From Chloroflexota bacterium (lineage in GTDB: Bacteria > Chloroflexota > Anaerolineae > Anaerolineales > VGOW01): a stretch of DNA of 40,360 bases. Position 1 is the first letter of the stretch; the number at the start of each line of letters is the position of its first letter. Below are positions 25,978 to 28,998 of the stretch, piece by piece. The stretch covers positions 1-40,360 of the forward strand of contig VGOW01000033.1 of NCBI GenBank assembly GCA_016875735.1, in the 5' to 3' direction. The notes under the pieces were generated by a model. That model was not told the origin of the DNA, made no database searches, and saw only the letters and a list, made by a program, of their open reading frames with translations. The position numbers were made by a program, and so were the translations under genes.

Positions 25978-26316
25978 TATTTTTATTGGCTGAACTTCTA
26001 CGATGGTTTCAAGGCGGGCAAACAATGCGTTGAGATGTTTCCCTGCACGAATTTCTCTGATGAGATGAAATCTATTTTGACCCAAGTATGCCGAGAGTTG
26101 ATGTCCGACCTGAAGAAGAAATCGACTCGTTTGCGGGCGTACTACGCTAAAACTGGCAATGTTGAGTACGACCAGTTCTATCCACGAAACTCTAAACTCA
26201 TCATCGACGAGATCGACCGGGTGCTGGCGAAGCACTACGGGTTCACGGAGGAGGAGTTGGATTTCATCATCAACTACGACATCAAGTATCGGATGGGGAG
26301 GGAGGAGGGGGAGTGA
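25978..26316 (+). pseudogene. C-terminal fragment of an Eco57I-type restriction/methyltransferase
   Basis: The open frame begins one base after the inverted repeat (YFYWLNFYDGFKAG) and continues to TGA 26316. The segment SKLIIDEIDRVLAKHYGFTEEELDFIINYDIKYRMG is the characteristic C-terminus of large Eco57I-class methylases. SDLKKKSTRLRAYYAKTGNVEYDQFYPRNSK precedes it, as in that family. About 110 residues remain of a protein normally near 1,000. The catalytic part (NPPY) is absent from the window, so a larger deletion accompanied the insertion. Confidence 0.8.
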
Positions 26317-26361: not shown

Positions 26362-26706
26362 TCATTCGATTTGCAAAGTGAAAGCGATTGCCTTTTCAAT
26401 CTTGTCCACCCACGAGTCCGACAAAGTGCCAAGATAGTCTGTAAGCCGGGCACGATCCACGGTTCTAATCTGATGACCCAATGCCACAGAATCCTCATAG
26501 AGGCCCCCCACGCCTTGGGGGACAAAGACGCAACTGGGGAGTTGGCGATATTTATCAACTTGTGAGGCAGTGAAGGGAACAACGACCAGTGTGCGCGTGT
26601 ACTGGCTAATCGAGTCGCGCTGTAGGATAACAACAGGCCGCTTGCCGTATTGCTCGGAGCCCCGGGTGGGATTTAAGTCCGCAAAGTAAATATCGCCCCG
26701 TTTCAT
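26362..26706 (-). CDS. mazF: MazF/PemK-family endoribonuclease toxin
   Basis: 114 residues. Opening MKRGDIYFADLNPTRGSEQYGKRPVVILQ is the diagnostic MazF beta-strand with catalytic Arg region. VVVPFTASQ carries the second active-site strand, and HQIRTVDRARLTDYLGTLS the conserved C-terminal helix lead-in. MazF cuts single-stranded mRNA at short motifs. It is third in a minus-strand operon, 20 bases after the putative antitoxin. It is convergent with the methylase fragment, whose stop is only 46 bases away. Confidence 0.95.
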   Translation of the reverse strand: MKRGDIYFADLNPTRGSEQYGKRPVVILQRDSISQYTRTLVVVPFTASQVDKYRQLPSCVFVPQGVGGLYEDSVALGHQIRTVDRARLTDYLGTLSDSWVDKIEKAIAFTLQIE

Positions 26707-26726
26707 CGGACGGTTGCTATCCGGCT

Positions 26727-27020
26727 TTAAGCGGCATTTTTGAGATCATGGTCGAGCAGGCGGGCATACTCATCCATCCCCATTTCGGCCAACGCCGCGT
26801 CTTCGTCGGCAAGCGCCTCGTAAATCTTTCCGACCCGGTCCATATCCCTATCGGCCATTTCTGACAATGCCGCGGCTTTCTCTGGCGGCACTTCTTTCCA
26901 GATCCATTGACCGATGATGATTTGCGACGGCGCGCTGGCAGTGAAGGGGGACGGATAAGGGGTTAACATGGGCCGGGATTGGAAAACTATAATCCCGGTC
27001 GTGTTCGAAAAGGTGTTCAT
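26727..27020 (-). CDS. Putative MazF antitoxin of unrecognised type
   Basis: 97 residues from ATG 27020, which has AGGAGG nine bases upstream. The N-terminal 45 residues (IIVFQSRPMLTPYPSPF...) do not look like AbrB, RHH or Phd folds. The C-terminal half is acidic and helical (MADRDMDRVGKIYEALADEDAALAEMGMDEYARLLDHDL), like the toxin-wrapping tails of many antitoxins. Position before mazF and small acidic character support the antitoxin call; there is no family match I can name. It begins two bases after the stop of the Clp-fold protease gene. Confidence 0.6.
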   Translation of the reverse strand: MNTFSNTTGIIVFQSRPMLTPYPSPFTASAPSQIIIGQWIWKEVPPEKAAALSEMADRDMDRVGKIYEALADEDAALAEMGMDEYARLLDHDLKNAA

Positions 27021-27022
27021 GA

Positions 27023-28024
27023 TCAAGCCTCCTGTGTTGAGATGGCTTGTGTCTGCCATTGACCCGCTTCGACTTGCAAAAGAGGAGGTTGGCCGGGTTG
27101 AGCAACACGCACTTTAAGGACAGTCCGGATTTCGTCGGAGAACATCCGGCTTTCGATCATCGCAACTGGCAAACTAAGTTCTGGCGCGCTATCAGTAAGC
27201 GCGGCCGGGTTGAAAGGCCGTCCAAGTTGCAGTTCTTGTTCGTATTGCATGAATAAGCGCATCATGGATTTCTCAATTTCCGGCAGCGCAAACACGACCG
27301 GAATGCCAAGTTTTTGAGCTTCACCCCGGCTGATCGTATAACTGTGGTAATACAGTTTCTCCGCCAATTCATCTACAATCCGCCCAATCGCCCGTTTTCG
27401 CACATCGTCCGTGTAGTGCATTTCGAGCAATCTTGTGGCTAACAGGCGTGTCAGAGCGTGTGAGCGGTAAATTGCGCCGATGGCTAATGGATGAACCCGA
27501 TGAGTCAAATGGCCAAATGCAGTGATTAAGTTGTCTTGATCCGCAATGCCAATACGGTCGCGGGCTAAACTGAAAAAGCCCATGATATCTTCAACGCTAA
27601 TTTGTGTTTTAGGTTCGTTAGGTTGGTCGGCATTGGGAGGGTTATAGGGGGTCTGTACGCTTGAGTCGATGGGCGAGAGTTCGCTCAACGGCCCCATGAT
27701 GATCTCATTTGCCCCAAGCGCCAACATGGTAGCGGCGCTATGAGCCTTGTATGGAATCAGAACACCCAAATGCTGACAATACTCTCGGAGCAAGCTAGCC
27801 AACCGCCATGGCACCATTGTGTCACCGCCGGTGCTGAAAAGGAAAACATCTATCTTATTCGCAGTCTGAAAGCTCGATAGGTGGTTGTAGAATCGTCTTA
27901 CTACATCCATAGCCATTTGCGCCTGAAAAGGATGCGGGCGGTCGGATGTCACGTAAGTGATAACACGCGAGCCGCGCAAATCTTCTAATTCTCGGATGAG
28001 TTGAAGACGATCTAGAAGGGCCAT
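27023..28024 (-). CDS. SDH-family Clp-fold serine protease
   Basis: 333 residues resembling PF01972 (serine dehydrogenase proteinase). FLFSTGGDTMVPWRLA (about 61-76) forms the oxyanion strand, KAHSAATMLALGANEIIMG (about 93-111) carries the predicted nucleophile Ser96, and LSELSPID (113-120) matches the family's GPIDP segment. No signal peptide or clear membrane helix; residues beyond 200 (YYHSYTISRGEAQKLGIPV) fit the C-terminal part of the fold. It heads a three-gene operon with the putative antitoxin and MazF. A TATACT box at 28074-28069 is a possible -10. Base composition is lower in GC than the flanks. Confidence 0.85.
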   Translation of the reverse strand: MALLDRLQLIRELEDLRGSRVITYVTSDRPHPFQAQMAMDVVRRFYNHLSSFQTANKIDVFLFSTGGDTMVPWRLASLLREYCQHLGVLIPYKAHSAATMLALGANEIIMGPLSELSPIDSSVQTPYNPPNADQPNEPKTQISVEDIMGFFSLARDRIGIADQDNLITAFGHLTHRVHPLAIGAIYRSHALTRLLATRLLEMHYTDDVRKRAIGRIVDELAEKLYYHSYTISRGEAQKLGIPVVFALPEIEKSMMRLFMQYEQELQLGRPFNPAALTDSAPELSLPVAMIESRMFSDEIRTVLKVRVAQPGQPPLLQVEAGQWQTQAISTQEA

Positions 28025-28203: not shown

Positions 28204-28255
28204 CAGGTTGATTACAGTGTATTGCAAGGGATGAGGTAGTGTCAACCATGAAAAA

Positions 28256-28536: not shown

Positions 28537-28998
28537 ATGGATCTGACTGACGAACAATGGCAGGTGGTCGAGCCGCTCCTCTCTGCCCCCAAACCCGCCG
28601 CTCCCGGCCGTGGCCGGCCTCCTCAAGACGCCCGCGCCATCCTCAATGGCGTCCTCTGGAAAATGCGCGCCGGAGCCGCCTGGACTGTCTTGCCCGCCGC
28701 CTACCCCTCCCATCAAACATGTTACCGCTACTATCGCGTCTGGAAAGCCTCCGGCCTGCTTCAGACCATCATCGCCGCCCTACACAAAGACCTGATCGCG
28801 CGTGGCAGGCTGGACCCTTCCTCGGCTCTTCGGCAGGGTCAAGTCCGAGTCGTGTCTGTCGCTGGCAAGATCACATTCATATTCTCCCCGCGCTTGCGCG
28901 GCGCCTGGCAGGCTTCTATCGCGACGATCCTGCTTCGAATGGCTTACAAAAAAGTTGCCAAACGGTTCAAATCGGGCCAGGCAATATCGTCGGATTAG
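28537..28998 (+). CDS. Short IS5-group transposase with DUF4096 domain
   Basis: 153 residues. The N-terminal DUF4096-type helix-turn-helix region is intact: MDLTDEQWQVVEPLL, GRGRPPQDARAILNGVLWKMRAGAAW, LPAAYPSHQTCYRYYRVW. The remaining 60 residues (VSVAGKITFIFSPRLRGAWQASIATILL) do not contain a recognisable DDE motif, and no second transposase frame follows before tRNA-Asp. Either a solo DNA-binding relic or the first half of a split transposase whose second half is lost. No terminal inverted repeats were found by eye. Confidence 0.7.
   Translation: MDLTDEQWQVVEPLLSAPKPAAPGRGRPPQDARAILNGVLWKMRAGAAWTVLPAAYPSHQTCYRYYRVWKASGLLQTIIAALHKDLIARGRLDPSSALRQGQVRVVSVAGKITFIFSPRLRGAWQASIATILLRMAYKKVAKRFKSGQAISSD

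Follow-up and report, generated by a model that had tools for sequence, protein, structure and literature searches.

We analyzed a 40,360-nucleotide (nt) stretch of DNA from a Chloroflexota bacterium (assembly GCA_016875735.1, contig VGOW01000033.1; hereafter the window), which carries on its minus strand three intact open reading frames (ORFs) in the order protease, small protein of 97 amino acids (aa) and MazF/PemK toxin (Table 1). The stop codon of the protease gene (27023-27025) is separated from the start of the small ORF (27020) by 2 nt, and 20 nt lie between the stop of the small ORF and the start of the mazF gene. The original prediction had read these genes as an operon of an SDH-type Clp-fold protease, an unknown antitoxin and MazF, with this spacing and with the end of the protease gene containing the ribosome-binding site for the antitoxin; the layout was found exactly as claimed, and the identities of the protease and of MazF were borne out by matches to PF01972 and PF02452 above their cut-offs. 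The promoter-like element 5' of the operon was graded weak because the number of such sites in the region is about that expected by chance.

Table 1. Features of the protease-antitoxin-toxin locus in the window.
Feature	Position	Strand	Length	Remarks
Protease, SDH-type (Ser-Asp-His) Clp-fold serine	27023..28024	-	333 aa	PF01972
Putative antitoxin / protease partner	26727..27020	-	97 aa	Family match in none of five libraries
MazF/PemK-family mRNA interferase toxin	26362..26706	-	114 aa	PF02452
AGGAGG ribosome-binding site of the antitoxin gene	27028..27033	-		Within protease coding end, 7 nt before ATG; read from the sequence
Promoter-like TTGACA-18-TACACT 5' of the operon	28216..28245	-		Weak; 3 such sites in the region vs 1.9 expected in shuffles

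The window protease matched PF01972 (SDH_protease) at 4.3e-13 with 49.4 bits, against a curated cut-off of 31.3. Its score of 62.7 bits with the NCBIfam equivalog NF047768 ('SDH family Clp fold serine proteinase') lies far under the cut-off of 250 bits, which indicates that it belongs to a related but distinct subfamily. In aligned relatives, with or without a toxin, Ser96 was conserved in 96/96, Asp120 in 96/96 and His227 in 95/95 sequences; Ser96 is the predicted nucleophile, and Asp120 and His227 are its predicted catalytic partners. The AlphaFold2 model of the protease (predicted local distance difference test score 94.4) had the 1510-N protease and ClpP as its nearest folds (Z about 13), and a profile search aligned Ser96 with the nucleophile Ser of both. 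The protease has no ATPase domain and carries additional C-terminal beta strands (residues 282-327) that finish near the invariant Trp323. The window toxin matched PF02452 (PemK_toxin) at 1.6e-28 and the EndoA structures PDB 4me7/4mdx at 9e-23, with R23 and T46 aligned to the Arg and Thr known as catalytic in EndoA of Bacillus subtilis.

The 97-aa protein had no match in Pfam, NCBIfam, PADLOC, PHROG(s) or PDB sequences, nor to ribbon-helix-helix, AbrB or helix-turn-helix (HTH) profiles. Used as a query, it retrieved no relatives from viral contigs and plasmids, and weak matches within the phylum were rejected, being either fortuitous alignments to parts of larger ORFs or reading frames interrupted by stops. 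AlphaFold2, run on a shallow four-row alignment, predicted residues 1-41 to be disordered (1-45 mostly so) and residues 46-96 to form one helix. Residues 59-92, however, align with the C-terminal end of the MazF antitoxin at an ordinary locus, L171 (0 of 2000 shuffles scored as high); this locus, from the same phylum, encodes a MazF 53% identical to that of the window, has no protease, and its antitoxin has an N-terminus unlike the window's. The same C-terminus was found in the small partner proteins of two further protease loci, L059 and L060. By its likeness to the L171 antitoxin, the 97-aa protein is thus a putative antitoxin, adjacent to its toxin, with a predicted MazF-binding C-terminus. 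What had been called an unknown antitoxin is therefore unusual in its N-terminal part alone, its last ~34 residues resembling those of an ordinary MazF antitoxin. The antitoxins of ordinary MazF operons elsewhere in the same genome (C68, C103) also differ from it at their N-termini.

The gene arrangement recurs. We scanned 84,980 species genomes with a five-row protease alignment (A2; a nine-protease alignment was too diverse) and kept the best 80 of 295 relatives, which with further draws gave 96 different subfamily loci. The order protease - small ORF - toxin was present in 12 of these loci, six with MazF/PemK and six, two of them convergent, with Fic/Doc; toxins scanned individually pass the Pfam cut-off, and the remaining ones were counted by a blind tally. 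The search of other genomes that the original prediction had proposed thus returned the three-gene arrangement with MazF/PemK at L059, L060 (Aminicenantes), L122 (Heimdallarchaeum), L180 and L181, which range from bacteria to Heimdallarchaeota, and with Doc elsewhere. Fic/Doc is an operonic third gene at L044, L045, L120 and L137. Most of the remaining loci among the 96 have no such third gene, and the protease itself is rare, occurring in 21 of 400 genomes of the phylum, in 1-4% of genomes in three other phyla and in none of the four further genomes from the genus. Close relatives of the protease within the order mostly have other neighbours, so that sampling the order alone would have wrongly refuted recurrence.

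Controls placed the toxins downstream of the protease. When ORFs of >=90 aa within 800 bp on both sides of the 96 proteases were scanned blindly against Pfam, the commonest downstream families were Fic (6) and PemK (5, the window MazF being displaced by a longer overlapping ORF), and neither was among the upstream families matched by at least two ORFs. A partner-like ORF, defined as 45-150 aa with a Shine-Dalgarno sequence and a position within -45 to +75 nt of the protease stop, followed 39 of 89 subfamily proteases; among canonical PF01972 proteases the count was 0 of 19, and among other long ORFs it was 30 of 325. On well-supported branches of the protease tree, association with MazF changes at least three times and association with Doc at least four times. 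A MazF clade made up of the window, L060 and L059 (support 95/99) has long branches, which indicate that the linkage of protease and MazF is old; L045 and L002 were also joined on long branches, so their placement is unsure.

We compared the two halves of the small protein separately among 21 partners. Among pairs whose third genes differ, N-half similarity went with the clade of the protease (+3.25 z, p 2e-4, permutation) and not with toxin type (0.10), whereas between protease clades the similarity of the C-halves went with the type of toxin (+1.06 z, p 0.002) and not with protease clade (0.16). The motif GLTSxxQLxDxT is common to the partners of toxin-less proteases at L127, L130 and L186 and to the PemK (L122) and Doc (L137) partners, and is weaker at L120, L044 and L085; all of these loci belong to one protease clade. 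PemK partners of other protease clades end in WDNxxDxxW, and an ordinary PemK antitoxin (L189) has the C-terminal sequence WNSKEDEYWDDY. In L190 and L191, which are ordinary Doc antitoxins, the N-terminus is different, being ribbon-helix-helix-like in our reading, and the C-terminal sequence is LYRKLAE or LYKKLAE. The N-halves contain 21% Ser/Thr and 17% charged residues, compared to 10% and 30% in nine ordinary antitoxins. The small protein thus appears to behave as a two-headed adapter, its N-half going with the protease clade and its C-half with the toxin type.

Other third genes and arrangements were also observed. At L187 (1338-1802) and L188 (2755-3117) a Fic/Doc gene lies on the opposite strand, convergent with but adjacent to the protease and partner genes. 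A PIN-like third gene was considered at L002 (Pfam PIN 2.2e-4, below cut-off) and perhaps at L129 (no PIN match); PIN also occurs three times upstream, and it is a weak case for a third toxin. A protein of ~103 aa with no Pfam match (PQYDIYIPLKYNDGR...) is encoded by a third gene that begins within or just past the partner gene at L085 (5320-5628), L086 (4419-4727) and L093 (5369-5674) and is a candidate unknown toxin. At L101, L102, L113, L117 and L125, which form one protease clade across different phyla, the third gene encodes a retropepsin-like aspartic protease and the partner C-terminus is DUF5678; the same plug-in logic possibly operates there with a non-toxin pair. The toxin-less Bacillota proteases (L078, L088, L090, L091, L095-L098, L100) have partners of 56-72 aa with an acidic Ser-rich tail, which in Moorella is ENSSSWP. 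Across the whole locus set, four downstream ORFs matched HSP20. The large clade L061-L084 (Patescibacteria and others) is often followed by proteins of 200-230 aa, some with membrane segments, or by DUF6941-type proteins, and lies partly near DNA methylases or restriction genes; its Patescibacteria members have the 200-230 aa proteins, and no toxins, after the protease.

Two relatives come from mobile elements. A solitary SDH protease in an Escherichia coli prophage (L039, 5989-7160; NZ_CP081794.1), present in 47 of 5426 E. coli genomes, is encoded on the strand opposite that of the prophage genes around it, with the Q antiterminator on one side and the lysis genes on the other, and overlaps an unannotated 59-aa Ser/Thr-rich ORF (MDNKSSTGNF...), with which it makes a protease-partner pair accessible to laboratory work. 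A distant SDH-type homologue (L043, WP_250681205.1) is one of six annotated genes on the 4150-bp ColRNAI-type plasmid pHNLW22-3 of Klebsiella quasipneumoniae.

The surroundings of the window operon agree in part with the mobile-element-rich island beside restriction genes that the original prediction described. A fragment of an IS4/5-type transposase lies near the operon (28537-28998), but those of the larger flanking genes that were tested resemble housekeeping genes (FtsX permease, LigT, tyrosine phosphatase, HSP90), and the sole ORF resembling a restriction-modification gene (26035-26316, plus strand, 93 aa, C-terminal end LDFIINYDIKYRMG), which we take to be a C-terminal remnant of a methylase, had no significant match in Pfam. 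No empty site was obtained from the flanks in sister genomes. PADLOC profiles matched none of the protease, the 97-aa protein and MazF. Around the wider set of loci, PADLOC tallied restriction-modification and helicase genes as well as four tentative downstream 'mad2' and 'PDC-S23' matches; the restriction-modification and helicase neighbours of some relatives are the only hint that suggests a role in defence.

A functional link between protease, antitoxin and toxin is well supported. The operon itself, its occurrence elsewhere with toxins that are unrelated, the invariance of the predicted catalytic residues and the two-way tracking of the antitoxin halves are the observed basis for a model that we judge to have about an even chance of being right, in which the locus is a type II toxin-antitoxin (TA) module whose dedicated protease controls a two-part antitoxin built as its client. 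The C-terminal helix of the antitoxin would neutralise MazF, and the disordered, Ser/Thr-rich N-terminal segment would take the place of the other, often DNA-binding, domain of ordinary antitoxins and serve as client segment of the SDH protease, both being made from one mRNA. The protease (S96/D120/H227, no ATPase domain) would engage this segment and, on some signal, cleave or remove the antitoxin, so that MazF would be freed and cut mRNA. Physical binding, cleavage, the direction of the effect and the trigger are steps that we infer; destruction of the antitoxin by the protease would then be the activating event. In a broader form, to which we give a little less than even credence, an SDH protease and its small partner would be an ancient unit of bacteria and archaea into which TA pairs plug repeatedly by exchanging the usual N-terminal domain of the antitoxin for the protease-specific segment, giving a general protease-gated TA class with interchangeable toxins and possibly a transferable protease tag.

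Several points weigh against this model. The permutations ignore relatedness and were made on 21 hand-chosen sequences. The N-halves of the window clade (window, L059, L060) match no other partners and resemble one another only weakly; their role in the window clade therefore rests on position, composition and analogy, by which this N-half would be the protease-specific part. Since proteases that lack a toxin also have partners, the small protein must have some function unconnected with toxins. Finally, with the protease gene in first position, a protease left unregulated would remove the antitoxin at all times; the model thus calls for a trigger, and none could be seen. In an alternative design the antitoxin would be protected or matured by the protease, for instance through trimming of its N-terminal tail, and loss of the protease rather than its activation would free the toxin. 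Such an addiction, which we regard as rather unlikely although it deserves serious weight, would follow the design of toxin-antitoxin-chaperone (TAC) systems, in which a short transferable segment makes the antitoxin depend on a SecB-like chaperone (PMC5105189), and a protease encoded first and abutting the antitoxin gene is what is expected of a factor that the antitoxin needs; the invariant catalytic residues would be unneeded for a pure chaperone role, though needed for trimming.

The toxin-less loci bear on a different arrangement, in which the protease itself is the effector and is restrained by the N-half of the small protein, so that the antitoxin of the window would restrain both protease and toxin. 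Small partners without a toxin are common, the solitary E. coli prophage pair among them, and fit protease and partner as a complete unit; the partners are, however, small and Ser/Thr-rich, and the N-half of the single modelled partner is disordered, which is client-like rather than like a folded inhibitor, and we consider this arrangement improbable. That a mobile MazF pair simply inserted behind an unrelated protease gene is very improbable and already largely refuted by recurrence. Proteases of this kind and MazF pairs are both mobile gene types, the distribution of the locus within the genus is patchy and an insertion sequence fragment lies nearby, but chance stacking does not account for recurrence with a downstream bias, for a three-member MazF clade held together over long branches, or for antitoxin N-halves that track the protease.

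The activation of TA systems is a long-standing question, to which the usual answer is general proteases such as Lon and Clp. A co-encoded serine protease, together with an antitoxin bearing a protease-specific segment, opens the trigger step to direct testing, and the protease-matched front and toxin-matched back of the antitoxin, present in bacteria and archaea, suggest a built-in release switch. Swappable toxins, if confirmed, would show that this design recurs and is not an isolated instance; the N-terminal segment could serve as a portable tag with which proteins are removed in a controlled way in bacteria and archaea, and a protease family on which hardly anything has been published would gain a first role. 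The open-access papers searched describe no protease-antitoxin-toxin system of this kind and say very little about the protease family; as the search did not extend to preprints or subscription papers, priority of the finding is not certain.

The closest solved fold, together with ClpP, is that of the 1510-N/NfeD-type protease of Pyrococcus (PDB 3viv, 3bpp; Z 13.1), whose Ser aligns with Ser96. It cuts the stomatin of its own operon at a hydrophobic tail but differs in being a membrane protease with a Ser-Lys dyad and no TA link. Ordinary MazEF/PemIK modules (the L171 MazF, B. subtilis EndoA) share the toxin family and, at L171, the C-terminal segment of the antitoxin, whereas they lack the protease gene and the N-terminal part of the antitoxin differs. 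Trios of a COG2856 (ImmA/IrrE) Zn-protease, Xre and RelE/PIN, predicted by Makarova et al., 2009 (PMC2701414), likewise join a protease to an antitoxin and a toxin, and the protease was proposed to cut the antitoxin or a repressor; however, theirs is an HEXXH metalloprotease, often fused to an HTH antitoxin, and neither this motif nor an Xre HTH is present in the three window proteins. The words 'serine protease' and 'ClpP' are absent from that survey (PMC2701414). TAC systems also comprise three genes, and in them a short transferable antitoxin segment binds the fate of an ordinary antitoxin to a third protein (PMC5105189), but that protein is a SecB-like chaperone, the segment is C-terminal and the antitoxin is protected, whereas the third gene of the window encodes a PF01972 protease. 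The gene for the orthocaspase MaOC1 of Microcystis aeruginosa PCC 7806 adjoins a ParE/ParD-like TA pair; MaOC1 cuts the antitoxin of that pair and arrests E. coli growth (PMC7935541). MaOC1 is a cysteine (caspase-like) protease juxtaposed to another toxin in a single Microcystis strain, its cleavage is probably at the antitoxin C-terminus, and a modular antitoxin was not reported (PMC7935541); as in the window, however, the protease gene is directly followed by antitoxin and toxin, and MaOC1 thus provides a precedent for the inferred step from cutting of the antitoxin to release of the toxin.
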